Assembly: GCF_900240245.1 (NCBI RefSeq)
Contig: NZ_OESQ01000001.1
Location: forward strand, 2,724,280-2,783,903
Source: Lachnoclostridium edouardi
GTDB taxonomy: Bacteria > Bacillota > Clostridia > Lachnospirales > Lachnospiraceae
Length of the DNA: 59,624 nt
Direction: 5' to 3'
Shown here in pieces: positions 387-16,423 of this stretch. Under the pieces are notes generated by a model. It searched no databases and was not told the DNA's origin. It saw nothing but the letters and a program-made list of their open reading frames with translations. Position numbers and translations under genes: made by a program. The first letter of the stretch is position 1; every line of letters starts with the position of its first letter.

Positions 387-1940
387 CTATGCCGTCTTTT
401 CCTGTTTATTGGCTTCTTTCTGTTCTGTCTGCGGGTCAGTCGGCAAATAAATTTCTCCCACAAAGTTAAAGACAATATCTACTTTCTGAAAACGCTTGCC
501 GTCTATCTTCTCCGGCGCATGGACAACGATTTTTTTAATAAATTCATTAACGATAGTGGGCGTTAATTCGGTTATTCCCACATATTTGCGGATAATGGCG
601 GCAAAGCTGTCAAAGTCACTTTTATTCTGTTCGTAGGTATCGACTTCCTGTTGTTCTGCCTTTACCTTTTCTGTAAGTTCTTTCTGCTCTGCTTCATATT
701 CTGCGGACAGCTTCAAAAACCGCTCATGGCTGATTGTGCCGTTGATGTCGTCCTCATAAATCCGCTTGAAAATCCGGTCAAGTTCTGCAATCCGTTTTCT
801 TGCCTGCCCGACCTCACGCCGCTTGCGCTTCATGTCCTTTTCCGCTTCATCAAACCGCTGTTTCTGTATCAGTTCCATAAAAGCAGTAATGTCCTCATAG
901 AACAGGGCAGTTACGGCAAATATCCGGTTAAGAACGATTTTCCGCAGGACTTCTTCTCTGATGAAGTGTGCTGTACAATCTCCTGTATTGCTTTTATATC
1001 TTGCACAGCGGTAGTTGTCTTGTGAACCGTCAAAGCTCTTGCAGGTGGCAAAGTGCAGTTTACTTCCACAATCCGCACAGAATACCAAGCCGGAAAACAT
1101 TCCCTGCCGCTCTGCCTTTGTGGGGCGGCGTTTATTTGCCCTTAATTCCTGTACCCGTTCAAAGACAGCTTCTTCAACGATTGCTTCATGTGTATTGCGG
1201 AAAATCGCCTGCTGTTCCTTTGTTGTGGGAATACGCTTTTTCAGCTTGTGGGATTTGGAATAGCTTTTGAAGTTTACCGTATGCCCACAGTAGTCCATGC
1301 GTTCCAAAACTGTTACAATCGTGCTTTCATTCCAACTGTACGGATTATCGGGAAGTGGTTTCCCTTTCTGCTTTGCATAATAGGCGCGTGTTGTCAGCAC
1401 TTTATCCGCTTTCAGAGTTTTCGCTATCCGCATAGGTCCGTTTCCAGCAACGCATAAATCAAAAATCCTCTTTACCACAACGGCGGCTTCTTCATCTACA
1501 ATCCATTTCTTTCTGTCGTTTGGGTCTACCTTATAGCCGTAAGGCGGCTTAGTCAGATGTTCCCCTGCCATGCCCTGCGCTTTCTTGATTGCCCGTACCT
1601 TTTTACTGGTATCTTTGGCGTAGAAATCGTTAAACAGATTTCGGAAAGGGGTAAAATCATTGTCGCCCTTTGCACTGTCTACACCGTCATTGATTGCGAT
1701 ATAGCGCACATCTCTTTCAACGAAAAAGATTTCCGTATAGTAGCCGACTTTTAGATAGTCACGCCCCAAGCGGGACATATCCTTGACAATGACTGTCGCC
1801 ACATTTCCGGCTTCAATCTCTGCAATCATGCGGTTAAAATTCGGGCGGTCAAAGGTCACACCGGAAACGCCGTCATCAATGAAAAATACCGGATTGGTAA
1901 AGCCATTATCCGAAGCGTATTTTGACAGAACTGCTTTCTG
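387..1940 (-). pseudogene. tnpX: Large serine recombinase, 3' portion (interrupted gene)
   Basis: This is the main part of a Tn4451 TnpX-type site-specific recombinase that would excise and integrate the outer element. The visible frame begins inside the resolvase domain (DDGVSGVTFDRPNFNRM, then VIVKDMSRLGRDYL). It continues through the Recombinase domain, a zinc ribbon (CADCGSKLHF...CARY) and a coiled coil near the C terminus. The catalytic-serine segment is absent here. It lies at 15261-15359 on the same strand, and joining 15261 to 1940 gives one frame of 550 codons reading SNSIVNQ-KAVLSKYA. The GTG at 1859 is only an internal valine and not a true start. As it stands the gene cannot make an active enzyme. 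Confidence 0.9.
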
Positions 1941-1970
1941 GAAAGAGATTTGTCAAGGGTGTTTTCTCCA
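1939..1970. other. Attachment site at the left end of the inner 13.3 kb element
   Basis: The recombinase frame stops matching its family at TG (1939-1940). Element DNA then runs 15 bases to AGGGTG (1956-1961), followed by TTTTCTCCA. The right end mirrors this exactly: CACCCT (15238-15243), 15 bases, then TG (15259-15260). Joined, the two ends give a symmetric 50 bp attP. Confidence 0.85.
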
Positions 1971-2117
1971 CGATATATCACCCTATATCAAAAAGCCAAA
2001 TAAACATGCCAAAATATCGCTCAATATTACATCGTTCGCAAACATAATAATTGAGAAACCGACAAATTTCTGCTATACTTACTCTTATAACTGATTTTAT
2101 TTGGACGGAGGATTTTT

Positions 2118-2333
2118 ATGAAAGTCAGCTATAAGAAACTTTGGAAGCTATTGATAGACAAAGATATGAAAAAAAGAGATTTAGAAAGATGTGCTGGAAT
2201 TAGTCATTATACCATCAACAAATTAAATCATGGTGAAAATGTTACAACCGATATTCTTGGGAAGATTTGCAAGGCATTAGGGTGTACAATGAACGATATT
2301 ATGGAATTTATTGATGACGATTCTGCACAGTAA
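2118..2333 (+). CDS. Small XRE-family HTH regulator
   Basis: This 71-residue Cro/CI-type DNA-binding protein has a helix-turn-helix spanning about residues 15-50 (KRDLERCAGISHYTINKLN) and ends in an acidic tail (DDDSAQ). GGAGG lies eight bases before the ATG. Very similar short regulators sit beside type I restriction-modification or methylase genes in clostridial mobile elements. Here it overlaps the start of an hsdS fragment, so it probably survives from such a locus whose methylase gene is gone. Its target is unknown. Confidence 0.8.
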   Translation: MKVSYKKLWKLLIDKDMKKRDLERCAGISHYTINKLNHGENVTTDILGKICKALGCTMNDIMEFIDDDSAQ

Positions 2334-2724
2334 AAGCCTATTTTGTAAAAGCATTATGTGTGTGCGAAATGGCAGTAAAAGTCTTGTCGGAAAAACTGCT
2401 TTGATTCCAATTGATATGCCCAAGACAACATGGGGGGCATTTATGATGATTGTCCGGAGCAAACTAAATGACACATATATTTTTCACTATTTGAACAGTC
2501 AGATGTTCTTTTCTCAAGTCTTCAAAGATACGGGAACGGCAACGATCAACCAGATAACCAAAGGAATCCTGAACGAATGCAGGTTGCCGCTTCCACCCGT
2601 AGAGGAAAGAAAGAAAATCTCAAAAATGCTTTCTACCTTTGATGCCAAAATCTATAATGCTGAACGAACCTTATATGCACTGATGGAAACAAGGAAAGCC
2701 CTTCTGCAACAACTATTCATATAA
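2311..2724 (+). pseudogene. hsdS: HsdS specificity subunit, C-terminal fragment
   Basis: The frame from about 2340 matches the C-terminal half of a type I restriction-modification specificity subunit. It contains a second target-recognition domain piece (FIFHYLNSQ-like, then ATINQITKGILNECRLPLPP) and the conserved helix beginning EERKKISKML. The N-terminal recognition domain is missing, and no hsdM or hsdR is in the window. The ATG at 2311 lies in unrelated sequence. The last residues (LLQQLFI) are repeated by a second hsdS fragment running in from the opposite strand. Confidence 0.75.
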
Positions 2725-2875
2725 AAAGCTGTTGCAGTAATGCCTTGCGATGAACTTGCAATAGTTCAAGTTCTCTCATGCTCTGATCAATTCTGGCTGT
2801 AATTGCGTCGAAGGTTTCAATCAGTTTCTTTTGTGAGATCAAATCAGGGTATGAGAGCCGATGCCCTGATTTCAT
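2717..2875 (-). pseudogene. hsdS: Inverted HsdS C-terminal fragment
   Basis: On the minus strand the frame reads YPDLISQKKLIETFDAIT and then RKALLQQLFI-stop, which is the terminal helix of another HsdS. It converges tail to tail with the plus-strand fragment and overlaps it by eight bases. Tail-to-tail hsdS pieces are typical of invertible, phase-variable type I systems, but both copies here are too short to function. Confidence 0.6.
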
Positions 2876-3046
2876 AAGTCAATGAAGCTGAATTGGTTTT
2901 CATAAAGGTCAATATCGGCTGAATTTCCTGATTTTTAAGGGGCATGAATCTCCATGAAAAAACATGGTGCTCCATGCCGGTTTGGTACAGTAATGGTACA
3001 GTGATTTGGGTGCGCAATGAATGAAAACCCTGTGCAACAAATAATA
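2876..3046. other. Gap between hsdS remnants and lysR
   Basis: I see no gene here. The stretch contains GGTACAGTAATGGTACAG, a short direct repeat, and leads into a hairpin before the lysR gene. Confidence 0.4.
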
Positions 3047-3052
3047 GAGGCC

Positions 3053-3084
3053 GCTGCCTGCAATTTGCAGACAGCGGCCTTTTA
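3053..3084 (+). terminator. Hairpin terminator
   Basis: GGCCGCTG...CAGCGGCC with an inner TGCAA/TTGCA stem is followed by a T-rich run on the plus strand. It separates the hsdS remnants from the convergent lysR gene. Confidence 0.65.
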
Positions 3085-3100
3085 TATGTGGCAAAACCCT

Positions 3101-3985
3101 TTACTGCATCATTATATCATCCACATAACTCATCGCAAAATCCCGGAATTTCTTTGCAGCAGGTGATATGAGCATATCCGCCGGTGTTGCTATGCCGATT
3201 TCTACCATCTGCGGTGGATTTAATTCCATAAGGCAAACTTTTTTCCCGTCACTGCGTTCTTTGGATTCAATATAGTTGCTCAGACTCACACCCAGGCCAG
3301 CTTCGACCATTCTGTAGCTGGCATATGTGTCCTCTGTTTCGAACCTGACGTTGGGTTGTATACGGTTTCTTCTGAACATGCGGGCATTATCTGTATCCTG
3401 TCCTCTGAATGTCTCAATATATGATTCTGTTTCAAACATTTTTACAGGAAAGGAACCCAGTTTTACTATCTGACTTTCTGCCGAAACGATTGCAACCAGC
3501 GGATCATTAAATAAGTGATGCCAAGACACATCGCCGTCTCTTTTGCTGACAATGCAAAAATCCATTTCCTGCGCAGCAATCAATTTATACAATTCTGTGC
3601 TTTTGCCGGTAATAATCTTTACCTCGATTCCCGGATACTCATTGTTGAAAGCGGCAATGACATGAGAAAACCACCTGTAGTAAATGCTGTAGGCTGTTCC
3701 TACCATAACTGTGCCGGTTTGCGTTCCTAATACGTCCGACTTTATCTGTTTATATTTTTCATTAACTGCGATGAACTCTCTGTAAATAGGTATCATCATT
3801 TCACATTCTTTTGTGGCACGCACACCCTCTCGGCTGCGTATCAGCAAAGAGAATCCAGCATCGGTCTCCATAGAAGCCACCATGCGGCTGAGACCGGAAG
3901 GCGTATAGCCCAGTTTGTCAGCGGCAGCGGAAAAACTCCCACACTTCAATATTTCAAATAAAGCTTTGCATTTTTCTGTGTCCAT
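3101..3985 (-). CDS. LysR-family transcriptional regulator
   Basis: This full-length LysR protein of 294 residues has an N-terminal winged HTH (residues about 1-60, GSFSAAADKLGYTPSGLSRMV) followed by a periplasmic-binding-like effector domain from about residue 90. It is divergent from the drug/metabolite transporter gene at 4095 across a 109 bp gap, the usual arrangement in which a LysR protein controls the transporter beside it and itself. The inducer cannot be told from sequence. It lies inside the 13.3 kb inner element, so it is cargo. Confidence 0.88.
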   Translation of the reverse strand: MDTEKCKALFEILKCGSFSAAADKLGYTPSGLSRMVASMETDAGFSLLIRSREGVRATKECEMMIPIYREFIAVNEKYKQIKSDVLGTQTGTVMVGTAYSIYYRWFSHVIAAFNNEYPGIEVKIITGKSTELYKLIAAQEMDFCIVSKRDGDVSWHHLFNDPLVAIVSAESQIVKLGSFPVKMFETESYIETFRGQDTDNARMFRRNRIQPNVRFETEDTYASYRMVEAGLGVSLSNYIESKERSDGKKVCLMELNPPQMVEIGIATPADMLISPAAKKFRDFAMSYVDDIMMQ

Positions 3986-4094
3986 CGGCGACCTCTTTGA
4001 GTTTTTTTCAAAATAAAAGTGATTTTATTTCGCTTTACTCAAAGTATATATCAATTTTATAATAAAGACAATAGGCGAAAGGATTGATCATGCC

Positions 4095-4940
4095 ATGTCA
4101 GAAAAAAACGCAAAAGTTTTGTTAGCTTCTGTGATATTAGCAAGAAGTTCATCTTATGTTCTACAAAAAATCGGTCTTACAAATATTGATGTGTTCAATC
4201 TTATGGGCATCCGCTTTCTCTTGGCTTTTATTATCATGCTTTTGATTTTTAACAAGAAACTGCGCTATGCCGACAAATCCAGTGTGATTTCCGGTCTTAT
4301 CGTTGGAACCATCTATTTTGTTGTTATGTCGTTCGAGGTATTCAGTCTTAAGACTTGTGAGTCTTCAACTACCGCCTTTCTTGAAAACACTGCTATAGTA
4401 ATGGTGCCGCTTTTTGAAGCTCTCTTGCTAAAGAAAATGCCTCTGCCAAGGACAATAATCGGCTTTCTAATGGCCATAACTGGCGTTGCACTGATGACGT
4501 TGCGTGGAGCATCTATCTATTTCTCTGTTGGACATATTCTGGCGATAGGTGCTGCCGCTACTTATGCGGTGGCAATCATCATTACTGACCGTGTTTCTAA
4601 AAAAGCAAACGCTCTTGTTATTGGCATCGTCCAGCTTGGAACAATGGGAAGTTTATCTGTTATATCTTCTTTTTTGTTTGAAACTCCACACTTGCCGTCC
4701 GAGCCTATGTCTTGGTTTGCCATCGTTTTGCTGGCTCTTGTTTGTAGCTGTTTCGGTTTTACATTACAACCGGTTGCCCAGAAGTACACGTCTGCAGAAA
4801 CTACAGGTCTCTACTGTGCTTTCGGTCCATTAGGTGCTGGGGTTCTCGGATGGATTTGCCTTGGTGAAGCCCTCAGCATCTTGGCGCTGATTGGAGCCGT
4901 TTTAATTCTTCTAAGCATTGTTCTAGTGCAGAAGGGCTAA
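4095..4940 (+). CDS. EamA/DMT-superfamily transporter
   Basis: This integral membrane protein of 281 residues has about ten hydrophobic helices arranged as two EamA repeats (roughly residues 5-135 and 145-280). Such carriers export amino acids, nucleobases or drugs, but the substrate is not predictable here. The chosen start (ATG TCA GAA) has AAAGGA upstream. It pairs with the divergent LysR gene, which probably regulates it. The last four bases overlap the end of the minus-strand SLOG remnant. Confidence 0.88.
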   Translation: MSEKNAKVLLASVILARSSSYVLQKIGLTNIDVFNLMGIRFLLAFIIMLLIFNKKLRYADKSSVISGLIVGTIYFVVMSFEVFSLKTCESSTTAFLENTAIVMVPLFEALLLKKMPLPRTIIGFLMAITGVALMTLRGASIYFSVGHILAIGAAATYAVAIIITDRVSKKANALVIGIVQLGTMGSLSVISSFLFETPHLPSEPMSWFAIVLLALVCSCFGFTLQPVAQKYTSAETTGLYCAFGPLGAGVLGWICLGEALSILALIGAVLILLSIVLVQKG

Positions 4941-5278
4941 AAGGTGCTATGCGGATTTGACGCAGCAAGGTTTTCAATTCTTATGAGCCCCTTTCTTTCT
5001 CTGGCTTGAGCGTATTCCAATAAGTTTCGTGCGTTGCTTGCAGGATGCCAGACGTAGTCAATCAGAAAATCACTGCTGTCAACCATGTATTTGTTCGCAC
5101 GGACGATTGCCAGTTTTCGGGGGACTTTCTCCATGTCAGGAGGATAAAACGTATCATCATACCCATCGGGGGCGTTGACACTTCGCTTAGATGGGTGATA
5201 GGGCAAAAGGATAGATAGAGTTATGTTCGGATATTGGTATTCTTCCGTGTGACACGCTCTGCAAAATCTGAAAGTTTC
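4937..5278 (-). pseudogene. SLOG/DUF1273-family protein, C-terminal remnant
   Basis: The frame ends with a segment typical of the SLOG-fold DUF1273 (YpsA-like) family: YHPSKR, GYDDTFYPPDMEKVPRK, ANKYMVDSSDFLI, WHPASNARNLLEYA. It can be read upstream to a stop at about 5279 without a suitable start, and the N-terminal half expected for a protein of about 180 residues is missing. It ends against the upstream region of the tyrosine recombinase, so a rearrangement probably removed the front. Confidence 0.7.
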
Positions 5279-5374
5279 TCAGCTTTCCATGGCTCATCGA
5301 AGCCCGGAAACCGGAGTTTCGGGCGCTTCTCAAGACCGTTACTTGAGGATGGAAATGCACATCTTCGTCCTCCA

Positions 5375-5400
5375 CGTGATAATAATCGTGGAGGTGGTCA
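5375..5400. promoter_or_regulatory. Hairpin before the tyrosine recombinase
   Basis: CCTCCACG...CGTGGAGG forms a perfect 8 bp stem whose right arm contains the GGAGG ribosome binding site of the gene at 5403. Folding would hide that site, so translational control is possible. Confidence 0.5.
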
Positions 5401-5402
5401 AC

Positions 5403-6350
5403 ATGACTAACAATACACAATTCAAGACGCTATTGAACACTTGGCTAAATCAAAAGAAGCCGATGATCACACCGTCAACCCATGCCAGTTTTACGCTGAT
5501 AGCCGAAAATCACTTAATACCTCACTTCGGTAAGCGGAAGATCGGCAGCATTACCGAGCCGGACATTCAGAGCTACATATCGTATCTTTACGAGTACGGG
5601 CGGCTGGATAAGTCCGGCGGTCTCACTGTGAAGACCATACGAGATGTGATTCTCGTGCTGCGGCTTGCTATGGAATATGCCTACAAGGAAAGAGCGATAC
5701 CACTGCTCAACTGGGACCTGATAGAATACCCCAAAGAGTTGGGAATAAAAAAGGTCGTTTCTCTGTCCAAGGATCAAGAGCAAGCTCTAATTCAGTGTAT
5801 ATACATCAACCTGAACCGGAAGACCGCCGGCATACTCATTGCACTGTTTACCGGTGTGCGGATTGGTGAACTCTGCGGCTTACAGATGAAGGACATTTCG
5901 TTGACAGATAAAACCATCAGCATCAACAAAACCGTTCAGCGCATCTATGACAAGAAAAAGGGAGAGTCCTATCTGCACATAGGGCCGCCGAAGACCAAGA
6001 CATCAGCTCGAACAATTCCCGTACCGTCTTTGCTCATGAACATTATCAAGAAGTTTTATACGGAAAATCCCAACCATTACTTCTTGACTGGCAAAACAAA
6101 GCCGACAGAGCCTCGAACTTACAGGCAGTTCTTTTCCCGTTTTTTGAAACGAAATGGGCTGCAAAAGGTAAAGTTCCACGAGATACGGCATACATTTGCC
6201 GTAAGAGCCATTGAAATACCAGAGTTTGATGTGAAATCTCTCTCTGAAATTCTCGGACATAAAAATGTGTCTTTTACTCTCAATGTATATGGCAGTGCCA
6301 ACTTGCAGCAAAAGGTAAAGTGTATGAATTTGTTAAATGATCTTTTATAA
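5403..6350 (+). CDS. Tyrosine recombinase/integrase
   Basis: This 315-residue phage-type integrase has an N-terminal SAM-like DNA-binding domain (about residues 1-100) and a catalytic domain with the expected residues: Arg in TGVRIGELCGL, the box HEIRHTF, His in LGHKNVSFT, and the nucleophile in NVYGS. The start is placed at the ATG preceded by GTGGAGGTGG rather than an upstream in-frame ATG that overlaps the hairpin. It may act on DNA in this element or, as in some gut Firmicutes, invert hsdS sequences, since hsdS remnants lie 2.5 kb away. That link is inference. Confidence 0.9.
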   Translation: MTNNTQFKTLLNTWLNQKKPMITPSTHASFTLIAENHLIPHFGKRKIGSITEPDIQSYISYLYEYGRLDKSGGLTVKTIRDVILVLRLAMEYAYKERAIPLLNWDLIEYPKELGIKKVVSLSKDQEQALIQCIYINLNRKTAGILIALFTGVRIGELCGLQMKDISLTDKTISINKTVQRIYDKKKGESYLHIGPPKTKTSARTIPVPSLLMNIIKKFYTENPNHYFLTGKTKPTEPRTYRQFFSRFLKRNGLQKVKFHEIRHTFAVRAIEIPEFDVKSLSEILGHKNVSFTLNVYGSANLQQKVKCMNLLNDLL

Positions 6351-6379
6351 GGTCATCTTGGGTGAGCAGGAACGGTGGG

Positions 6380-8074
6380 TTACCGTTCCTGCTCACTCTT
6401 TTTCTTTTGAAGAGTCTGCTGCTCCTTCTGCGCCTGTCGCATCATTCTCCGTACCGCCTGTCGCTCCATATCCTCATGAAGCATACGGGAAACCGCCTTT
6501 TTGCTGTCAAACATCAGCAGCGGGCTGTACTTCTCGCCGTAGACCTGCTGTGCCCGGCTCTCCGCTTCCTGCTCCTTACCGGGGCGGATAGCCTGCCTTG
6601 CTTCATACAGCTGCACCGGATCAACGCTCTGTGCCTGCTCCCGAAGTCCGGCATACTCGTTCAGGGCAGCGTCCAACTCGGCAGAATATTTCTGTTCCTG
6701 TTCTTCCAACCGTTTTAGGCTCTGTTCCATAGCTACAATGTCTTTGGGAAATTTATCGGCGGCATCTTCCTCGGTATATGCCAGCGATGCCAGAAGCAGA
6801 TTTTTCTCCGAACGCAGTTCCTCCAAATCCTCCGTCAGAGCCGCAATCTTAGCCGCCAGTTCCCGGTGCCGGAATACATGAACCGCAGAGAGTGCCTTTT
6901 TTTCGGAAAGCAGACTGCGGCGCTCCTTCGTCTTATCCCGAATGTCCTTTGCAAGCTGATTGTACTGTGCGAGGGCAGGGCGCAGTGTATTCAGCGAAGT
7001 GTTCAGGCGTTCCTTGCCTTTGCGGAGATACCCCAGCTGATAGCAGAACAGCAGTAGATTTTTACGCAGATTCTCCATGGCCTCAACAAGCGCCGGTAGG
7101 GTGCTTTTAACTGCCTGCGCCAGCTTTTTGACCTGTCCTCTCAGCTCCCGGAGCAGGACATTGTCGGCCTTGATCTGCCGGTTCAGTTCGCACCGGTCAG
7201 AGATAATGCCCTTTTTCTCCATGGCTCTGGCAACCACCCCCTCATGGACCGTAGGCCGCTCCAGCAGGCCACGTTCGGCATGGCTGCGGTGGTCGATGCG
7301 TTCTTCGTGCCCGGTGCGCTCCAGATAGTGGTTTGCCACATCCGCCCATGCAGCCCGCCACAAAACAAGCTGCTCGTCGCTGTTCCAGCGTTCTGTGATG
7401 GGATTTTGCCTGCCATATTTGGTGCTTTTAGGATATTTGGATACCCGTTCATAGCCCTGCGCCTGCGCTGCGGACGGGGCCATATACACCTTCTTTTTTC
7501 CCACTTTGTACTGGTACTGTTTCTCCCAGCCGTCGGCCTGTGCCTGTTTGAACTCAGCGGCGGTAAAGCCCCGTTCTTCGCCGTCTTTGACGCAGAGATA
7601 TTCTTTCTCGGTCTTGTACTGCCATTTTCCCTTTTCATCCAGCGGGCGCACCGTCAGCAGGATATGGGCATGGGGATTGTGTCCGGGAGGATACGGGTCA
7701 TGGATAGCAGCATCCGCGCACATTCCGTCTGCCACAAACTGCTCCTTGATGAAATCTTGCAGAAGCTGGATTTGTTTCTCCCGGCTCAGTTCTATGGGAA
7801 GCGCCGCCACAAATTCACGTGCGAGGCGGCTGTCCTTTGCAGTTTCGGTTTCCTCCACGGCATTCCACAGGGTTTCCCGATCCTGCCACTCTGCGGGGGC
7901 GGTGGCTGGCAGAAAAACCTGCCGCCACCCAAGGCCCTGTTTGCGGGTGTAGTCGTGCTGCACCCCGTCATACTCGTTGTGCATCCGGGAACAGCTCAGA
8001 TAGGCCGCAGCAGCTACGGCGGAGCGTCCGGCTCCACGGCTGACTATCTTAGCCTCCAAATGATAAATCGCCAT
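6380..8074 (-). CDS. mobL: MobA/MobL-family relaxase
   Basis: This 564-residue mobilisation relaxase of the MobQ type nicks its oriT and leads the single strand to the recipient during conjugation. The N terminus (MAIYHLEAKIVSRGAGRSAVAAAAY) holds the catalytic-tyrosine region, and the metal-binding triad is seen in PGHNPHAHILLTVRPL near residue 135. The C-terminal 250 residues are a long coiled coil rich in K, E and R. The gene reads away from a candidate oriT at 8408-8460. No mating-pore genes are present, so the element must borrow a conjugation machine from elsewhere. Confidence 0.93.
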   Translation of the reverse strand: MAIYHLEAKIVSRGAGRSAVAAAAYLSCSRMHNEYDGVQHDYTRKQGLGWRQVFLPATAPAEWQDRETLWNAVEETETAKDSRLAREFVAALPIELSREKQIQLLQDFIKEQFVADGMCADAAIHDPYPPGHNPHAHILLTVRPLDEKGKWQYKTEKEYLCVKDGEERGFTAAEFKQAQADGWEKQYQYKVGKKKVYMAPSAAQAQGYERVSKYPKSTKYGRQNPITERWNSDEQLVLWRAAWADVANHYLERTGHEERIDHRSHAERGLLERPTVHEGVVARAMEKKGIISDRCELNRQIKADNVLLRELRGQVKKLAQAVKSTLPALVEAMENLRKNLLLFCYQLGYLRKGKERLNTSLNTLRPALAQYNQLAKDIRDKTKERRSLLSEKKALSAVHVFRHRELAAKIAALTEDLEELRSEKNLLLASLAYTEEDAADKFPKDIVAMEQSLKRLEEQEQKYSAELDAALNEYAGLREQAQSVDPVQLYEARQAIRPGKEQEAESRAQQVYGEKYSPLLMFDSKKAVSRMLHEDMERQAVRRMMRQAQKEQQTLQKKKSEQER

Positions 8075-8096
8075 AAATCACCTTGTCCTTTCTGAA

Positions 8097-8296
8097 AGGG
8101 GTGCCCGAAACAGGGCACCCTTGTTTTCGCTCAGTGCGTCGTGAAATACGACGCACCACCAGCAGGGGCGGAACGATTCGTTCCACCCCTGTATCTGTGT
8201 CAAGCTGCCGGTGGCAGGTTGACGCAGGCAGGCGGCGGGATGGGGTGGCAATATACCACCCCATGAACAGGGGCTTCCAAAACGGAAACCCCTGCG
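8097..8296. repeat. Train of six short hairpins upstream of mobL
   Basis: Six consecutive perfect or near-perfect hairpins of different sequence occur in 200 bp: GGGTGCCC (8099-8120), TGCGTCGT (8135-8155), GGGGcGGAACGA (8165-8189), GTCAAgCTGCC (8199-8223), ATGGGGTGG (8240-8263) and CAGGGGcTTCC (8269-8294). No plausible protein is encoded. They lie between the relaxase start and the nic region. Confidence 0.8.
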
Positions 8297-8407
8297 TCGA
8301 CTGCATGGGCAAGGCTGGCAGTTTGGCAGAAATGCAGCCTTGTCCAGCGGCTCCCGCAGGAGTCGCAATCCCCCTCGGAGAGCGCACGTGCCCGACCAAC
8401 GGGAGGG

Positions 8408-8460
8408 CTACCACCGCCTGCTTTAGCAGGTGGTGAGTAAGTGCGCCCTTCGGGAAAAAG
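8408..8460 (+). other. oriT: oriT with MobQ-type nic region
   Basis: An imperfect inverted repeat (CCACCGCCTGC...GCAGGTGG, 8411-8433) is followed by TAAGTGCGCCCTT at 8438-8450. That core matches the RSF1010/R1162-type nic site, in which cleavage falls near GCGCCC. It lies between mobL and the DUF3847 gene, a usual location for oriT. Confidence 0.8.
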
Positions 8461-8493
8461 AAAAAGCGACCGATAGCCGGTCGCTCATAAAAA

Positions 8494-8700
8494 TCATCGG
8501 ATTGGTTTGAATACTTCGCATAAAAAATCCTCCAACTGTTCCAAAGTCATCTGTGTTGTCTGCGGTAATGCTTTCTCTAAAATCGCACCTTCCTGAATCA
8601 GCCGCCGTGTCCGTGCTTTTCGCTCTTTCTGTCGGTCACGCATCTGTGCTTCTTCCAATCTATGCTTCGCCTGCAAAAGCTTCTTTTCATTTTCTGTCAT
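8494..8700 (-). CDS. DUF3847-type small mobilisation-associated protein
   Basis: This 68-residue, highly charged protein (MTENEKKLLQAKHRLEEAQ, later TLEQLEDFLCEVF) resembles DUF3847 proteins found beside relaxase genes in clostridial mobilisable elements, so it may be a relaxosome accessory protein. The start at 8700 has GAAAGGA upstream. A longer in-frame extension to 8769 lacks a good ribosome binding site. It is on the far side of oriT from mobL and on the same strand. Confidence 0.7.
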   Translation of the reverse strand: MTENEKKLLQAKHRLEEAQMRDRQKERKARTRRLIQEGAILEKALPQTTQMTLEQLEDFLCEVFKPIR

Positions 8701-8791
8701 AGGTTTATTCCTTTCTGCCGTATCCGGCTGAAAACGCAAAGAAGGCGGCTCATGAGATTTTATTCTCACAAGTCGCCTTCATCGTCATTTA

Positions 8792-10819
8792 TTATGCTGT
8801 TTTCTCTTTGTTTTTATTTGTTGCCCTGAGTTCCTGCTGTCTTTTCTGATTTGCTTTTTTCATGCAGGACTCACAGCAATATTTCGCATTCTTTCTGTTT
8901 GTGATAAAAACAGTTCCACAGTTTTCACAAGTACATTTTCGTTCTCTTTTTTTCGCCGCTTCCTGCCGGTAATACTTCGCACGGCAGTTCTGGTCACAAA
9001 ACATAGCATTGGACATTTTGGATTCAAATGTTTTTCCGCAGCACTTACAAATTAATTGAAACGGCTCTCCAATGATATGTTCTCCAGCTTTGATTTTCTG
9101 ATAGCGCTCCCGACTCTTTATCCGGTGTCTCCGAAGCTGTTCCTGCCGTTTTATTTCTTCTTCCGTCAATTCTGGCTCAGGCAAATCAAAGCGTCCGATA
9201 AATTTCAAATAAATCTCAATCTCCTGCACCCGATCTCCATCAATCTTCTCCGGTGCATGAACAAGAACCTTGTCAACAAATTCATTGATCATTGGTGTAG
9301 TCAGTTCTGAAAAATCAGTATACTTTTTCGCAAGTGAAAGAAACTCCTCCATCCGAACGGTATCTTCTTCAAAAGCAGATAGCTGCTGTTCTGCACTTTC
9401 GACAGAAGAAAGAAGCTGTTTCTGCTCCGTTTCATATTCTTCCAGCAGGCTGTCAAATCTTTCTTCGGAGATGCGTCCGACTGCAAAGGATTCATAAAGC
9501 TTTTTTATAATGACATCCAATTCCTTTGCCCGCTTGCGCTCTCTGCTCAGCGTTCTTTTGATTTCTTTTGCCTCCTCTTTTTGTCTGAGCTTCGATGCCG
9601 CACGAACTTTTTCCATAAATTCCTGTTGATTGGAAATAGCAAATGTGCTGACCGCCTGAATGGTTTCCAAAATCAGTGTCCGTATTGATTTTGTTGAAAT
9701 ATAATGGCTGCAACAAACATCTTTATGCTTTCTGGATTCCAGTTTATAAGCGGAACACTCGTAAGAATCATAAGGATAATTTCCATTTTCCAAATCGCCT
9801 TTGAATCGGTGGTTATACATCTTCGCCCCACAATCAGCACAGAATACAAGTCCTGTCAGAGGATTGGCTTCCCCAAGAGTATCTTTGCGTCTTGGAGTTT
9901 TCCGCAATTTCTGTACCAGTTCCCATGTTTCCTTGTCAATAATCGCTTCATGGGTATTTTCAACAATCAACCATTCTTCCTGCGGATTAGGGACACTGCT
10001 CTTGTCCTTATAGGATTCTTTATGGGAACGGAAATTTACGGTATGACCGATATACTCCGGTTTAGATAAAATCTTCCCGACAATATGACCGCTCCAGTTA
10101 TAAGGGCTTGAAAAATCTTCCTTGCTTTTCCAGAAACCAATTCCTTTTTTGCCCAAATAAACAGCAGGTGTTTCCACCTTGTCCTCATACAAAATTCGTG
10201 CAATCTCATAAGGACCAATGCCTTCCACATTCATGCGGAATATCCTGCGGACAACCGCAGCAGCTTCTTCATCGATCAGCCAGTGATACTTGTCTGCCGG
10301 ATCTTTTTTATATCCATAAATGGCAATGTTGGTGGTTGGCTTTCCGGACTCGCCTTTGATGCGGATTGCTGTTTTTTGCTTGCGGCTTAGATCACGCAAA
10401 TACCACTCGTTCATAATGTTAAGAAATGGGGCAAACTCATTGCTATTCTGGTCATTACTGTCTACACTGTTAGAAATTGCCACAAAATGGACTCCATGCT
10501 CACGAAACATAATTTCCGTATAAAATCCAGTTTGCAAATAATCTCTGCCGATTCGGCTCATGTCCTTTACTATCACATGAGCCACTTTTCCGGCTTCAAT
10601 ATCGGCAATCAGACGCTTCCATGCCGGGCGGTTAAAATTTCCACCGGAATAACCGTCGTCGGTATAATGGACAATATTAACGTAGCCCTGTTGCTCAGCG
10701 TAGCCTTCCAGATATTTCTTTTGATTGATGATTGAATTGCTGTCCCCAGCCAACTCATCATCACGGGACAGTCTTTCATATAAAGCTGTGATTTTTCCTT
10801 CAGTCTGTTTTACGCTCAT
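8792..10819 (-). CDS. tnpX: Large serine recombinase with two C-terminal zinc ribbons
   Basis: This complete 675-residue recombinase is the likely enzyme for integrating and excising the 13.3 kb element. The resolvase domain (residues about 10-165) shows the catalytic serine in ALYERLSRDDE, then GDSNSIINQKK and VIVKDMSRIGRDYLQ. The Recombinase domain follows at about 190-290, then a zinc ribbon (CADCGAKMYNH) and a coiled coil. Beyond the usual end of the family (about 550 residues) it carries two more C-x2-C...C-x3-C modules, CKCCGKTFES...FCDQNC and CENCGTVFIT...CCESC. It overlaps tnpW by four bases (ATGA). Confidence 0.93.
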   Translation of the reverse strand: MSVKQTEGKITALYERLSRDDELAGDSNSIINQKKYLEGYAEQQGYVNIVHYTDDGYSGGNFNRPAWKRLIADIEAGKVAHVIVKDMSRIGRDYLQTGFYTEIMFREHGVHFVAISNSVDSNDQNSNEFAPFLNIMNEWYLRDLSRKQKTAIRIKGESGKPTTNIAIYGYKKDPADKYHWLIDEEAAAVVRRIFRMNVEGIGPYEIARILYEDKVETPAVYLGKKGIGFWKSKEDFSSPYNWSGHIVGKILSKPEYIGHTVNFRSHKESYKDKSSVPNPQEEWLIVENTHEAIIDKETWELVQKLRKTPRRKDTLGEANPLTGLVFCADCGAKMYNHRFKGDLENGNYPYDSYECSAYKLESRKHKDVCCSHYISTKSIRTLILETIQAVSTFAISNQQEFMEKVRAASKLRQKEEAKEIKRTLSRERKRAKELDVIIKKLYESFAVGRISEERFDSLLEEYETEQKQLLSSVESAEQQLSAFEEDTVRMEEFLSLAKKYTDFSELTTPMINEFVDKVLVHAPEKIDGDRVQEIEIYLKFIGRFDLPEPELTEEEIKRQEQLRRHRIKSRERYQKIKAGEHIIGEPFQLICKCCGKTFESKMSNAMFCDQNCRAKYYRQEAAKKRERKCTCENCGTVFITNRKNAKYCCESCMKKANQKRQQELRATNKNKEKTA

Positions 10820-11031
10820 GATGCGCTCCTTTCAGACTGTCGGCTCATTTGTGGTGAATCTATTATACTACAAGTTCCGCCAGTTGTAACCGTTTCATTG
10901 TGAATCATCCGTAAAATTTTATCCTCCATTGTTTCTTTCTCTGTATCGCTGAATACTACTTTAACTTTATAGGTGGTGCCGCCAATGCGGCGAGTCATAT
11001 AAGAAAAATTATTGTTCTCGTTTTTTGCCAT
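10816..11031 (-). CDS. tnpW: TnpW-family transposon protein
   Basis: This 71-residue protein contains the TnpW signature (MTRRIGGTTYKVKVVFSD...ETMEDKILRMI). Such proteins accompany Tn4451-type recombinases and their function is unknown. Its stop overlaps the start of the recombinase gene, so the two are translationally coupled. GGAGG precedes the ATG at 11031. A part of its 3' end (ATTCACCACAAATGAGCCG, 19 bases on the minus strand) recurs inverted at about 15191-15209. Confidence 0.8.
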   Translation of the reverse strand: MAKNENNNFSYMTRRIGGTTYKVKVVFSDTEKETMEDKILRMIHNETVTTGGTCSIIDSPQMSRQSERSAS

Positions 11032-11072
11032 AGGCAGTTACCTCCGTGTTGAAATGTTCATTGTTTTTTCGT

Positions 11073-11101
11073 ATAATAGGTTTAGTTCCGGCATGATGTA
11101 A
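11073..11101 (-). promoter_or_regulatory. Promoter of tnpW-recombinase operon
   Basis: Read on the minus strand, TTACAT, a 17 bp spacer, and TATTAT lie about 40 bp before the tnpW start, a reasonable sigma-A promoter. Confidence 0.5.
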
Positions 11102-11163
11102 CCATTTGCATGGTTAAAATTGAACAAAAGGTATTAACACCCTGCCAATACAGAAATGCCCTC

Positions 11164-11192
11164 AAAAAAGCCTTGCGGCACAAGGCTTTCCG
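11164..11192 (-). terminator. Terminator of the cysteine-rich protein gene
   Basis: AAAGCCTTG/CAAGGCTTT stem followed on the minus strand by a TTTTTT run, just downstream of the gene ending at 11205. Confidence 0.8.
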
Positions 11193-11204
11193 AGGGCAAA
11201 AGCG

Positions 11205-11573
11205 TTACATCTGTTGTTGTTTTTCTCGGTACTTACGCACCCTTGCTGCGGTCTGCTTACGGCGAGCTTCTTCGGCGCAGTGCTGTGAGCAGTACACCCG
11301 TTTTCCGTCAGTTGGGAACGGCTTGCCGCATTGTTTGCAATGAGTGGTCGGTATTTGCGTGAATACGGCTTCCAACCCTGCATCTTCCGGCAGGACAGAC
11401 TTGCGGAAATATCTGCATAGTGCGCTGTTGGTAAAGCAGATACCCAACATTGGACAGTCACAGTCCAATGGCAGGCAGCCGTACTCTTTGTCGTAGTTGG
11501 CACAGAGAGAAGTAACCAGCTTCTTAATCCGTTGCTTCTCCCTGCCTGTCAGCTCACGAGAATTGTTTGACAT
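11205..11573 (-). CDS. Cysteine-rich VLP-domain protein
   Basis: This 122-residue protein has a cysteine cluster (CANYDKEYGCLPLDCDCPML...CFTNSALC) typical of the 'cysteine-rich VLP' family of Gram-positive mobile elements. A C-terminal zinc ribbon (CKQCGKPF...YCSQHC) is followed by a basic tail. The start at 11573 is preceded by AAAGGAGG. The role is unknown, and nucleic-acid binding is a guess from the basic, metal-binding tail. The same kind of tail occurs in the recombinase at 8792 and the protein at 12730. Confidence 0.75.
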   Translation of the reverse strand: MSNNSRELTGREKQRIKKLVTSLCANYDKEYGCLPLDCDCPMLGICFTNSALCRYFRKSVLPEDAGLEAVFTQIPTTHCKQCGKPFPTDGKRVYCSQHCAEEARRKQTAARVRKYREKQQQM

Positions 11574-11732
11574 AGTCGGTTTCCTCCTTTCATTCAGTGT
11601 CGAAAGTAATCTATTAACAGACAAAATAGATTACCTCCTCACTTATAGGAGAAATACAGGGTACTTAGCGGAACTGTTTTTACGAAGAATCCAAGAAATT
11701 TTCAAAAATATTTTTGAAGGGAGGTGTCTGCG

Positions 11733-12680
11733 GTGTTCGACGATCCCGAACGATATGAACATGACGGCTTTTATGAAGAAGATACTGACTATGAAGATGA
11801 ATATGAAACGGACGATTCCGATTACATAGTCGATGACGAAGAAGATGAAAATACCCTTTGGGACGATGAGGAAGAAGCCGCTGACGATCTTCCCGAAAAG
11901 AAGCGAAGGAAGCGGAAGAAACAAGTTGTTCTTGCTGACAATGATATGGATACCGAAGAAACCGAATTATCCGAACAAGCCATGTGGCAAATCGCAAAAG
12001 AAGAACAGCTCATCGAAGAACTGGAAGTCGACGCCGAGGAACATCCCTTTGAGGATGGTACTGACGAGGAAGAACCGGAGCGTAAGAAGCTCAAACGAGA
12101 ACTGCGGGCAGAAGCCCTTGCACGATTGGAGGATTCCGCCAGAACACAACGGGAGTTTGAAAATGTGATTGCATGGTGGGACAGGCTGGACGCTAATCAG
12201 GAACGCAGGGAACGCTATCACGAACTCAGCCGCAGCGGTGACGATGTCCCGCTTGACTATGGTGCATCTGCCAATGAATTCTTTTTCCCGAATACGCTGA
12301 ACGATGTACTGGAAAAGCAGCTCCGAAAGGGAGATTTCATTGATGCCATTTTCTACTGTCCTTACGACATCCATGAACTTGTAACGGAAGAATACCTATC
12401 CAAAATCCTCTGGGAATTGAATGAGGAACACAAGGAGTTGCTCTTTCTCTGCGCTGTCCGGCTGTTTAGCTCAACAAGGATCGCTAAAATACGGAATCAA
12501 AGCGACCGGAACATCCGCAAGGTGCGTGGTACAATGCTCAAAAAGATACGAAAAAAGCTGCTTCCTGCACTGTTGGATAAGGCAGAAAGGCAGCAGCCAA
12601 TGACCTTATTGGAAAAAGATTTTTTAGAAGAAAATATGACGGAGATTGATTCTGAAGAAAAGAAATCGTATAATTGGTAA
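11733..12680 (+). CDS. Acidic protein with sigma-like C-terminal region
   Basis: This protein of about 315 residues has a first third that is extremely acidic (many D/E runs, with a basic patch KKRRKRKK near residue 60). Its C-terminal half ends in a segment resembling sigma-70 region 4 (LNEEHKELLFLCAVRLFSSTRIAKIRNQSDRNIRKVRG). Similar HTH-tailed proteins precede the next gene in related elements, where a regulatory role is assumed. The second GTG (11733) is preferred because GGGAGG lies eight bases before it, while the first GTG touches that site. The exact function is unknown. Confidence 0.6.
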   Translation: MFDDPERYEHDGFYEEDTDYEDEYETDDSDYIVDDEEDENTLWDDEEEAADDLPEKKRRKRKKQVVLADNDMDTEETELSEQAMWQIAKEEQLIEELEVDAEEHPFEDGTDEEEPERKKLKRELRAEALARLEDSARTQREFENVIAWWDRLDANQERRERYHELSRSGDDVPLDYGASANEFFFPNTLNDVLEKQLRKGDFIDAIFYCPYDIHELVTEEYLSKILWELNEEHKELLFLCAVRLFSSTRIAKIRNQSDRNIRKVRGTMLKKIRKKLLPALLDKAERQQPMTLLEKDFLEENMTEIDSEEKKSYNW

Positions 12681-12729
12681 TATAAATTGAAGTTATTTGG
12701 ATTACAATACATGACGGAGGGTTTTGTAT

Positions 12730-13635
12730 ATGAAGAACCTTTTTGAACGCACCAGTTCTAACTGGGTGCGGTATAGTGAATATGAATGGAGGGCGGCAGA
12801 GGACGGAACTCTGTATCTCACGCCCACCAAGACGGCGCAACCGAGTATTTATGACCCACTGGCAGAGTATCAGAAAATTGTATTGGATGCCATCAATATA
12901 GGACGCATGGGTATGAGCAAAAAGCCGGATGCCGAAATTCAGAAGGCTATCCAGCAATTTGCGGTGAAATACGGCTTGTTTGGACTGATGACTGCGCTAC
13001 CTACCACTCCTAACTTTATGGAATACGAGGCGGTGTACCTGCCGAAAAACCACTTTATCAAAGAAGAAACCATGTCCACTAAAAAATATCTGGCACTGTT
13101 CTTTCCATTCGACAAATTGGATGTGATCAAGCGTGGTATCGAATCCATGTGGAACATCCAGAATGACCGTGTTATGATGGCACTGGCTTTGACCATGACA
13201 GACAAGCCGATGGCTGTCAACATGAGCTTTCAGCGGGAATATGCGGAGCGATATGAATGGATGAAACAGCAGTTCATTGACTGGGCGTTTACCTATATCA
13301 ACAGTTTTCTTTATTATGAGGATTATGATACACTGAACGATGAAACCCGGCAGATGATGCAGCAGAGCATGGCAGCTTTTGGCGGCATCGCTCCAACCTA
13401 TCATATAGCTCTTTTGGATAAGACGACCATCGTTTGGGATTTTCATTCCCTGCTGCTGGGCGTACAGATGATGTTCAGTTTTATGCTGACAGACAGCGAA
13501 AACCCGATTAAGCTTTGCAGGCATTGTACCAAAGCTTTTGTCGCAAGCAGACCAAGTGCTGTATTTTGCAGCCCTCAGTGCAAGAATAAGCATAATGTTT
13601 ACAAAAGCAGAGCGAGAAACAAAAGTGAAGAATAG
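12730..13635 (+). CDS. Element protein with C-terminal zinc ribbon (DUF6076-like?)
   Basis: This 301-residue protein of unknown function is probably soluble. The main body has no motif I can name. The C terminus is a zinc ribbon (CRHCTKAF...FCSPQC) with a basic tail, as in other proteins of this element. The ATG at 12730 is chosen over an in-frame TTG because GGAGGG lies about eight bases before it. It follows the acidic sigma-like gene by about 50 bp and precedes rhuM, so the three are likely one operon. Assignment to DUF6076 is tentative. Confidence 0.6.
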   Translation: MKNLFERTSSNWVRYSEYEWRAAEDGTLYLTPTKTAQPSIYDPLAEYQKIVLDAINIGRMGMSKKPDAEIQKAIQQFAVKYGLFGLMTALPTTPNFMEYEAVYLPKNHFIKEETMSTKKYLALFFPFDKLDVIKRGIESMWNIQNDRVMMALALTMTDKPMAVNMSFQREYAERYEWMKQQFIDWAFTYINSFLYYEDYDTLNDETRQMMQQSMAAFGGIAPTYHIALLDKTTIVWDFHSLLLGVQMMFSFMLTDSENPIKLCRHCTKAFVASRPSAVFCSPQCKNKHNVYKSRARNKSEE

Positions 13636-13648
13636 GAAGGGAATGGAT

Positions 13649-14683
13649 ATGAACGAAGAATATGGGCTAACTCCTTATGAAACAAGGGAAATACTGTTTT
13701 ATAAAACCGATAATGGTGAAGTTCGGGTTGAAATCCTTTTATATCAGGAAAACTTGTGGCTGACGCAGGCAAAGATGGCAGAATTATTTGAAGTGCAAAA
13801 GGCGGCTATTTCAAAACATTTGAAAAATATTTTTGCATCTGGCGAATTGCAGGAAGAAGCAGTTGTTTCCAAAATGGAAACAACTGCGGCAGACGGCAAG
13901 CGGTACAATACAAGCTATTACAATCTGGATGCCATTATTGCTGTCGGATACCGTGTTAATTCTAAAAAGGCTACGATGTTCCGCATTTGGGCAAATCGAG
14001 TATTAAAAGAATTTATTATTAAAGGCTATGTGATGGACGATGCACGACTGCGAGAACCAGAAAACCTCTTTGGTAAGGACTATTTTGAGGAACAGTTGGA
14101 GCGTATTCGTGATATTCGCTCCAGCGAGCGCCGTTTTTATCAAAAAATCACGGACATTTACTCCCAGTGCAGTGCTGACTATGATGTGAACAGTCCTATT
14201 ACAAAAGAGTTTTTTGCCACAGTACAGAATAAGCTTCATTACGCTGTCACTCATCATACGGCGGCTGAGATTGTTTATGGACGAGCCGATAGCACAAAAC
14301 CAAACATGGGCTTGACAACTTGGAAAAATGCTCCGCAGGGGCGTATTCGCAAGTCGGATGTTTCAATCGCCAAAAACTACTTAAACGAAGAAGAAATGAT
14401 AAATCTGAACGAGATCGTGACAATGTATCTGGACTATGCCGAAAGACAGGCACGGCGGGGAAATATCATGTATATGCAGGATTGGGTTAATCGTTTGGAT
14501 GCGTTCCTCCAGTTCAACGAAGAAGATATTTTACATGACAAAGGCAAAGTGACCGCTGCCATCGCAAAGGCGTTTGCAGAAAGTGAATTTGAAAAATTCC
14601 GTGTTTTGCAGGACAGGACATATCAGAGTGATTTTGACCGTCTTGTGGCAAATATCGAAGAAAACAGTAAACAAACAAAATAA
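13649..14683 (+). CDS. rhuM: RhuM-family protein
   Basis: This 344-residue protein belongs to the virulence-associated RhuM family, common in mobile elements and often suspected of toxin or defence roles. Recognisable parts are the N-terminal winged-helix-like segment (LTQAKMAELFEVQKAAISKHLKN), NTSYYNLDAIIAVGYRVNS, and FRIWANRVLKEFIIKGYVMDD. The C-terminal half resembles a Fic/Doc-like helical fold in this family. AGGAAGG lies eight bases before the chosen ATG. Its molecular activity has not been settled. Confidence 0.85.
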   Translation: MNEEYGLTPYETREILFYKTDNGEVRVEILLYQENLWLTQAKMAELFEVQKAAISKHLKNIFASGELQEEAVVSKMETTAADGKRYNTSYYNLDAIIAVGYRVNSKKATMFRIWANRVLKEFIIKGYVMDDARLREPENLFGKDYFEEQLERIRDIRSSERRFYQKITDIYSQCSADYDVNSPITKEFFATVQNKLHYAVTHHTAAEIVYGRADSTKPNMGLTTWKNAPQGRIRKSDVSIAKNYLNEEEMINLNEIVTMYLDYAERQARRGNIMYMQDWVNRLDAFLQFNEEDILHDKGKVTAAIAKAFAESEFEKFRVLQDRTYQSDFDRLVANIEENSKQTK

Positions 14684-14690
14684 ATCAGGA

Positions 14691-14736
14691 AACCCCACGC
14701 TTCCGATTTTATTGTCAGAAGTGTGGGGCTTTTGTA
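14691..14736 (+). terminator. Terminator after rhuM
   Basis: CCCCAC...TTC and GAA...GTGGGG arms followed by TTTT, ending the 11733-14683 gene group and separating it from convergent tnpV. Confidence 0.8.
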
Positions 14737-14742
14737 TCAGGT

Positions 14743-15117
14743 TTACAGATCATATACCAATTCGTGCAGAACGATTTCTTCCGCACGGTTACGGATACTG
14801 TTCATACGGCGCACCCATTCTATTTGATCAGCCGCTTTGAGCGCTTCAGTTACGCCTTCCTGCTTTGCCATAGCGGAAACGATGTTTTCAATGCGCTCGT
14901 TGCAGGCTTGATCGATTTCAGCTAAATGCTTGAACAGCGTTCCCTCCAGCACATAGTTGTTGTAGAGGATTTTACGGTACTCTTTCAGATAGCTGCGGCG
15001 CATACGCCCGTATTTGCCTATCTGATATTCGCCGTTATCCGGCAAAGTAATGTTGGGAATGAAATAATCTCCCACTTGACGGTATGTACCGCCCATTTCT
15101 TCAAAGATAGTTTTCAT
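14743..15117 (-). CDS. tnpV: TnpV-family transposon protein
   Basis: This 124-residue protein is recognisable as TnpV of Tn4451-type elements: FEEMGGTYRQVGDYFIPNITLP, YLKEYRKILYNNY and WVRRMNSIRNRAEEIVLHEL. The function is unknown. The start at 15117 has AAAAGGAGC upstream. It is the last gene before the right end of the inner element. Confidence 0.85.
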   Translation of the reverse strand: MKTIFEEMGGTYRQVGDYFIPNITLPDNGEYQIGKYGRMRRSYLKEYRKILYNNYVLEGTLFKHLAEIDQACNERIENIVSAMAKQEGVTEALKAADQIEWVRRMNSIRNRAEEIVLHELVYDL

Positions 15118-15190
15118 AAAATTCAGCTCCTTTTGTGTTGATTTCCAGCGGTTATAAGGCTTTTTGACTCCTTTCTTACAACTGCTTTTC

Positions 15191-15215
15191 AATTCACCAC
15201 AAATGAGCCGCAGTC
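15191..15215 (+). repeat. Inverted copy of the tnpW 3' end
   Basis: ATTCACCACAAATGAGCCG plus a near match GCAGTC repeats, in inverted orientation, the 3' end of tnpW at about 10832-10857. The two copies are 4.3 kb apart inside the inner element. Confidence 0.7.
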
Positions 15216-15228
15216 ATATGTATTAGAT

Positions 15229-15260
15229 GGCAGAAACCACCCTTTACATATTAACTCTTG
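15229..15260. other. Attachment site at the right end of the inner element
   Basis: TGGCAGAAACCACCCT (arm ending 15243), 15 bases, then TG (15259-15260), mirroring the left end at 1939-1970. Directly after TG the recombinase coding sequence resumes (ATTAACAATG on the plus strand). Confidence 0.85.
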
Positions 15261-15359
15261 ATTAACAATGCTGTTGCTGTCGCCGTCTAATGCGTCCTCT
15301 TGACTTAAACGGGCATATAATGCGGTTATCTGTTCGGGCTTATATGTATTTGCTGTCAT
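15261..15359 (-). pseudogene. tnpX: Large serine recombinase, 5' portion (interrupted gene)
   Basis: This is the start of the outer recombinase. It begins MTANTYKPEQITALYARLSQ, where the serine of ARLS is the catalytic nucleophile, and runs through GDSNSIVNQ. At 15260 the frame enters foreign DNA and stops after about 22 further codons. The other 1,554 bases of the gene are at 387-1940 in the same direction and in phase. The start lies three bases from the end of the tnpW-like gene, as in the inner element's own pair. Confidence 0.9.
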
Positions 15360-15361
15360 GT

Positions 15362-15619: not shown

Positions 15620-15869
15620 TCCTTTCCCGTCCTTTCTTTGATTTGTAATGTGATAAGTTTCGTAGCAAGCATAGGAAAAGAGTACCCTTTTCCGAAAATG
15701 CGTTGCATTTTGCTTGTTGGGAAGTGTCCCAAACCCTCTTAATTTTCCTCTCACTACCTACAACACCGGACAGAGCGATTTTGCCGAAGTTTTGAGTAAA
15801 ATTTTTCAAAAAGTTTTTCTTATCTCTTACTACGGGAAAGTTTCAAAAATGCCAAATGTGAGTAAAAGA

Positions 15870-15898: not shown

Positions 15899-15900
15899 TC

Positions 15901-16376: not shown

Positions 16377-16423
16377 CAAGGAACAGGAAATGTTCCAAAA
16401 TACAAAATGGAGGTATGAAAAAA

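Follow-up and report, generated by a model that had tools for sequence, protein, structure and literature searches.

Mobile elements that interrupt genes of other mobile elements have been described in several forms. Streptococcal integrative mobilizable elements (IMEs) with serine recombinases integrate in the conserved genes traG, snf2, and maff2 of integrative and conjugative elements (ICEs) (Coluzzi et al. 2017, PMC5357655; Guedon et al. 2017, PMC5704250), and insertions of IMEs into conserved ICE genes are also described in PMC7168690 and PMC12904643. Tn4451, Tn4453, and Tn6104–Tn6106 combine a large serine recombinase (LSR; TnpX) with TnpV and a mobilization gene (MobA/L); Tn6104 is flanked by a 2-bp direct repeat and nested in a conjugative transposon, and its excision has been demonstrated (Brouwer et al. 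2011, PMC3158075). IME_Rho_tet of gut Bacillota likewise has a serine recombinase and terminal inverted repeats and is often found in genes of other elements (PMC12904643, 2026), while LSRs of the DUF4368/TndX-like type strike many gene clusters (Durrant et al. 2022, PMC10083194). Here, we describe a 13,320-bp IME with its own DUF4368 LSR, located in a 59,624-nucleotide stretch of the Lachnoclostridium edouardi genome (assembly GCF_900240245.1, contig NZ_OESQ01000001.1, positions 2,724,280 to 2,783,903; hereafter the window), where it divides the LSR gene of what appears to be another mobile element.

This locus resembles the streptococcal systems: in both, a mobilizable element with a serine recombinase inserts at a fixed position within a conserved gene of another element and disrupts it. 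For those systems, restoration of the gene upon excision has been proposed (PMC5357655, PMC5704250). Their targets are genes of Tn5252-superfamily ICEs, traG being the coupling-protein gene, whereas here the insertions lie in the recombinase gene itself; the recombinases concerned differ widely, and the hosts are mostly clostridial. Compared by description only, Tn6104–Tn6106 lie in open reading frames (ORFs) 1743 and 1776 of Tn6103, described as part of the conjugation module, and we saw no indication there that these are recombinase genes (PMC3158075). In 116 of 256 resolved cases (45%), IME_Rho_tet occupies a MAFF2 gene, and recombinases may be among its other interrupted families. It carries tetracycline resistance (PMC12904643), whereas the NCBIfam scan of 20 window proteins (up to position 19,692) gave no resistance family above its cut-off. 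Unlike the multi-targeting DUF4368/TndX-like LSRs, whose clade was excluded from the published Pfam enrichment of target genes (PMC10083194), the elements described here mostly enter sites of a single class, the SNSIxNQ codon within LSR genes. We found no report of recombinase genes as a common target of an IME family in the open-licence PMC literature. Mobilizable elements that target conjugative-element genes, by contrast, are known.

An LSR gene divided at a single codon

The insert (1941–15260, counting one TG) divides a DUF4368-type LSR gene of 550 codons. The 5′ part (15261–15359, minus strand), defined by ORF and junction analysis, comprises 33 codons with an ALYARLS motif, which we take to bear the catalytic serine. 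The 3′ part (387–1940, minus strand) extends from the Q codon to the stop and encodes the remainder of the Resolvase domain followed by the Recombinase, zinc ribbon, and DUF4368 domains. The split point is the Q codon of the sequence SNSIVNQK, and a TG core dinucleotide is read at both the left (1939–1940) and the right junction (15259–15260), so that 15260 minus 1940 gives the 13,320 bp of the insert. An AGGAGG sequence lies upstream of the ATG at 15359, and the 33-codon part continues for 23 codons inside the insert before a stop, while the first in-frame start of the 3′ part is codon 61 (GTG at 1859). A prior examination of the DNA, hereafter the sequence-only reading, had claimed that the split gene would be rebuilt in frame at the TG, and the computed junction agrees: joining the flanks at this dinucleotide yields a single open frame of 550 codons, in which MTANTYKPEQITALYARLSQEDALDGDSNSIVN is followed directly by QKAVLSKYASDNGF, with no base gained or lost.

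The same reading had held that the element uses the recombinase gene of another element as its attB. The analysis supports this view, and the joined frame is the normal gene. The complete protein P0001 (550 aa; cluster of 3,243 member sequences) matches the joined protein at 97% identity over 100% coverage and is uninterrupted across the junction (SNSIVNQKAVLSK). A continuous SNSIxNQ motif is present in 110 of 120 homologues of the joined protein (best 120 of 7,936). Since the two halves, searched separately, both match P0001 at 100% (over 33 and 134 residues), they are identified as parts of one gene and not as pieces from recombinases of different subfamilies. The expectation that the joined sequence would be found in genomes held at the protein level, through this 97% homologue, but not at the DNA level: no exact copy of the empty site was found in viral contigs (joined 32-mer) or in 25 genomes. 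The plasmid collection contained one uninterrupted LSR at 72% (Pusillibacter), and a search of plasmids with the empty-site DNA gave one uninterrupted place at 72.5%.

In Anaerotruncus colihominis, the counterpart of the window's target gene, with DNA identities of 93.8% and 92.8% on the two sides, is likewise split at the same TG by a different relative of about 24.7 kb, which extends over roughly 2,340,310–2,365,015 in strain DSM 17241. Because this gene is cut at the same TG and the same codon is struck in many recombinase genes, as described below, the split in the window reflects more than chance.

Most relatives of the element share the target codon

The inner LSR was used to scan species genomes, and the best 80 of 523 relative-encoding loci were considered, with best-segment identities of 57–81%. 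Right ends were compared where the match reached at least position 480 of 518, which gave 59 of the 89 fetched loci and, with the window, 60 rows; loci without a match and three with shorter right-end matches (L038, L073, and L085) fall outside this set. In 36 of the 60 rows, a 5′ LSR half that stops at SNSIxN, immediately before Q, lies outside the right end, with junction variants that include SLSIRT and SGSIQH. Three further rows (L021, L027, and L048) have the opposite orientation, with a 3′ LSR half outside the right end, bringing the right ends at the SNSIxNQ codon to 39 of 60. Two others end elsewhere in an LSR-type gene (L080, 70 bits; L079, a weak match of 26 bits). In these two, whose LSRs are 62–63% identical to the inner LSR, the right ends lie at another codon, in the C-terminal part of the LSR-type genes (weak for L079), and more than one lineage may thus target recombinases.

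At the other end of the element, the left terminus TG-nnnn-GAGATTTGTCAAGG coincides with the start of the LSR 3′ part, at the Q codon. Both ends were located at the target codon in 26 copies including the window, of which 22 have the core TG and four the core CA. The core is the same at both ends in 18 of 19 tabulated rows; in the nineteenth, L059, the right junction was read by hand. The sequence-only reading had asked whether other copies always sit at the same codon of tnpX-type genes. The shared codon is borne out for most copies by these right ends and both-ended copies, while the restriction to tnpX-type genes is not, as targets include two tyrosine integrases and some other places. The halves of 25 both-ended copies (all but L027) were compared with a reference set of 191 complete proteins. 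In five copies (the window, L013, L014, L019, and L022), a single protein matches both halves at 97% or more, and the halves of L009 match one complete protein at 97% and 87%. The other tested copies, apart from L032 and L059, have no close complete relative in the set of 191.

A second survey, less dependent on the first loci, looked for the right-end pattern in samples of two orders, 392 genomes of the first and 394 of the second, each taken from a larger group; its sites were called by this pattern alone. The pattern occurred in 6 and 9 genomes, respectively, giving 17 sites in 15 genomes. Thirteen of these lie at the LSR codon (11 oriented as usual and two inverted; the assignment of L131 rests also on the both-ends analysis), one lies in a tyrosine integrase gene, and three in neither. 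Six of the 17 sites were already in the first set, and the LSR codon is struck in seven of the 11 new ones. One genome (G754) carries three copies in three different LSR genes, with the left end located for two of them; for the third, no target half was found within the approximately 40 kb fetched. Two near-identical copies in this genome (L148, position 4487, and L150, position 15487) have their own LSR frameshifted at an A-run just past SNSIVNQ, either a real change or an assembly error. Relatives of the inner element occur in many gut bacteria, mostly Clostridia. Taken together, one group of mobile elements appears to use the recombinases of other elements as its landing site.

Diverse recombinase genes serve as targets

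Of 25 computed 3′ fragments of targets, 23 exceed 60 aa; these were compared with one another, as were 25 inserter LSRs, considering pairs with a BLAST match. Clustering of the target fragments gives 15 groups at 70% identity and 7 at 50%, and their median pairwise identity is 43%, as against 78% among the inserter LSRs. Because the best match of a target to any compared inserter LSR reaches only 36–61%, no close relative of the inserters' own LSR is found among the targets. Near-identical elements (L012–L016, whose LSRs cluster at 95%) occupy five LSR genes with different 5′ parts in Faecalibacterium, Agathobaculum, Hominifimenecus, and Brotaphodocola. Among targets of other kinds, L001 and L132 lie inside tyrosine-integrase genes (Arm-DNA-bind_4, Phage_int_SAM_3), again immediately before a Q codon, and L076 lies in a gene without a Pfam match that adjoins, by our reading, a secretion-type ATPase gene.

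This pattern of targets bears on the idea that the insertion is a regulated developmental or stress switch, comparable to active lysogeny (comK), to which the sequence-only reading had likened it, or the gerE element, in which the host would gain from timed restoration of the gene. Precise restoration is possible in principle, and spore formers do harbour elements that interrupt genes in this way (PMC5595907). However, the interrupted gene is the recombinase gene of another element, different elements use this target in different hosts, and the present data contain no sign of a host programme, which together make such a switch very unlikely.

Core dinucleotide and orientation

In serine integrases, a central-dinucleotide rule has been derived from work on Bxb1 and phiC31 (PMC3783163). 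All four both-ended copies with a CA core are inverted relative to the target (L021, a pair of copies in genome G018 that includes L027, and one in G194). L021 lies in the same target type as the TG-core copies L010 and L024 but in inverted orientation. This comparison indicates that orientation is set by the core, as the polarity rule of serine integrases predicts. The 2-bp core, the conservative exchange, and the core-set orientation, to which one TG copy forms an exception, are the traits of a large serine integrase.

Proposed integration by the inner LSR

The inner LSR (8792–10819, minus strand) is a protein of 675 aa without an internal stop and carries Resolvase, Recombinase, zinc ribbon, and DUF4368 domains. 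Comparison of the element ends delineates a left attP arm (1941–1959, plus strand; GAAAGAGATTTGTCAAGGG) and a right attP arm (15238–15258, plus strand; CACCCTTTACATATTAACTCT), both conserved among relatives, the right arm being an imperfect inverted repeat of the left. The inner IME's own LSR very probably integrated its attP into the SNSIxNQK-encoding DNA of another element's LSR. In this process, the enzyme would join the imperfectly palindromic attP, CACCCTTTACATATTAACTCT-TG-GAAAGAGATTTGTCAAGGG, to an attB in the target LSR gene, namely the DNA for the conserved S-N-S-I-x-N-Q-K stretch of the other element's recombinase. Conservative exchange at the 2-bp core would split the target between codon 33 and the Q codon without loss of a base. 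With the insert present, the split after codon 33 deprives the target LSR of its N-terminal catalytic segment. With the segment of the catalytic serine severed from the remainder of the enzyme, the outer element would be unable to excise by means of this enzyme as long as the insert stays. Excision, perhaps aided by TnpV as a directionality factor, would restore the target gene, and a helper element would mobilize the inner element. TnpV of Tn4451 has been postulated to be Xis-like on homology grounds (PMC3158075); according to an IME review, the Tn4451 recombinase needs no such factor (PMC5704250).

Several observations weigh against integration by the inner LSR at a dedicated site. No LSR flank is present at 19 of the 60 right ends, which points to a strong yet imperfect specificity; in four of these (L007, L057, L066, and L072), the right end was extrapolated over 36–38 bases and may be misplaced. 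L048 has a TG core yet is inverted, with TGG replacing the Q codon, and no other target half lies within the further approximately 40 kb fetched. The flanking halves of L032, whose left end lies in L118 and which is counted among the 26 both-ended copies, derive from two different recombinases; later rearrangement therefore occurs, and this chimera suggests recombination between two inserted copies. The loci of the LSR scan were picked for a related LSR, so that the enzyme is common to all of them by construction. The inner LSR lies near the middle of the element and not at an end, and a tyrosine recombinase is also aboard. As for reversibility, excision would follow from the proposed reaction; neither its product nor a circular form was observed, nor was transfer.

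The right ends without an LSR flank would also fit an LSR of low specificity that prefers an AT-rich pattern around TG and strikes recombinase genes through their abundance in mobile-element-rich genomes, with no true attB. Three of the non-LSR sites (L001, L018, and L076), judged by eye, are attB-like beside the TG, and Durrant et al. assign DUF4368/TndX-like LSRs to a multi-targeting clade (PMC10083194). However, mere abundance of LSR genes would leave the codon unfixed, whereas the same codon of the same motif recurs across the two surveys and near-identical elements pick it in different LSR genes. We therefore regard low specificity as an improbable account.

We give next to no credence to movement of the element by its tyrosine recombinase (5289–6350, plus strand), although this gene is an open frame of 353 aa with a Phage_integrase domain. 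The junctions share 2 bp only, the target is restored without added bases, and relatives whose LSR belongs to the same family have matching ends. In addition, the stretch with this gene (5291–8719) is common only to L063 at the DNA level (>88% identity), while the blocks common to L004, L057, L058, and L059 start at 6367–6415, past the gene.

The target motif in the inserters' own recombinase gene

The inserters' own LSR gene encodes SNSIxNQK too. In 3 of 25 genomes, the own LSR gene, recognized as such from coordinates, contains a 93% match to 30 bp of the window's empty site. Since the own gene carries the target motif, the inserters must avoid or tolerate self-insertion. Avoidance through a site matrix was considered and rejected: among the sites listed, own-type sites mostly score 25–40 against a leave-one-out target median of 34, with no separation. 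In a base-by-base comparison, TA is present at +9/+10 in all 42 distinct own-type sites, which were picked out by matching a text pattern of the own N terminus and all belong to one clade, but in only 1 of 17 target sites, the rearranged copy L032. This difference could equally be explained by shared ancestry.

Composition of the inner element

The finding of an intact LSR with the four expected domains is accompanied by that of a MobQ-family relaxase (6380–8074, minus strand; MobA_MobL), which scores 246.9 bits in NCBIfam model NF041496 against a cut-off of 200. TnpV is encoded at the right end (14743–15192, minus strand; PF14198, 159.9 bits), a trait shared with Tn4451. No type IV secretion protein was found among the scanned proteins of 1941–15260, some small ORFs being outside the scan. 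This gene content identifies the inner element as an IME. By domain content alone, the family of the inner LSR is compatible with that of TnpX; the core here is TG or CA. The core of Tn4451 is GA.

The domain scan further assigned a DUF3847 protein (8494–8769, minus strand), a small Cys_rich_VLP protein (11205–11624, minus strand), a small Cro/C1-type regulator (HTH_26) adjoining the left end (2118–2333, plus strand), and a fragment of a type I restriction specificity protein (HsdS, Methylase_S; 2311–2724, plus strand). A RhuM-family protein (13538–14683, plus strand), identified by domain and PADLOC scans, has a strong best PADLOC match to the candidate defence family PDC-S05. The element also encodes a LysR-type regulator and an EamA-like transporter. 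Positions 11955–15260 share 97.6% identity with the Clostridium porci element L006, and 5291–8719 share 93% with the Gemmiger element L063, giving the inner element the look of a mosaic. Neither the phage nor the plasmid collection contained a long match to it; the short matches comprise three unannotated phage records at 14750–15263 and one plasmid match of 1–207. A TnpV scan of viral contigs gave no confirmed match.

Surroundings of the insertions

A match to the type IV coupling protein (PF02534, partial in some cases) lies within 30 kb outside the element end in at least 9 of 23 genomes (G002, G003, G004, G010, G011, G013, G015, G024, and G754), by distances computed by hand; such proximity is no proof of membership in one element. 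In G010 and G011, a partial PF02534 match lies 0.2–0.3 kb beyond the right end. This arrangement would be compatible with nesting at three levels, with an LSR element inside the coupling gene and an element of the inner type inside the LSR element.

In the right flank of the window, 15261–15857 and 19075–20679 are common to the window and A. colihominis (91–93%), while the intervening stretch is not, and 15858–19074 therefore looks like exchangeable cargo of the outer element. This stretch includes a radical-SAM 'ACGX system' maturase (16425–17749; TIGR04340, 611 bits), with a small ORF containing ACGX-like repeats (by reading), an HxlR regulator, and a nitroreductase-like gene as neighbours. 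The region is probably a peptide-modification cargo. Farther away, a second LSR-type gene (57041–59605) is apparently broken by an IS3-like insertion (roughly 57808–59258), the names being read from ORFs; the flanks of this insertion match a contiguous stretch of L152, which lacks the insert, at 92–93%. A Fic protein matching PDC-S04 and, two genes further, an OLD/GajA-like ATPase are encoded at 53316–56932.

Implications

Beyond the single integration event, a tentative extension, to which we give somewhat less than even weight, is that these elements form an IME clade that has specialised in using the recombinases of other elements, which would serve as a near-universal attB. As the S-N-S-I-x-N-Q-K DNA is conserved wherever such LSRs occur, every LSR-borne element would offer a landing site in any host. 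Insertion would disarm and pin the host element, whose conjugation machinery would be usable in trans, and excision would re-arm it; the TA at +9/+10 would be a possible mark of self versus non-self. We hypothesize that the parasite benefits from pinning its helper element while exploiting it in trans.

These findings add recombinase genes to the target classes in conflicts between mobile elements and provide a natural way to account for the recombinase genes that are found split in Clostridia. For annotation, split LSR genes may represent interrupted elements and not dead ones. The attP/attB pairs with natural TG and CA cores report the orientation of insertion and are useful for the study of serine integrases. 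They also raise the testable question of how a recombinase whose recognition motif also occurs in its own gene avoids self-insertion.

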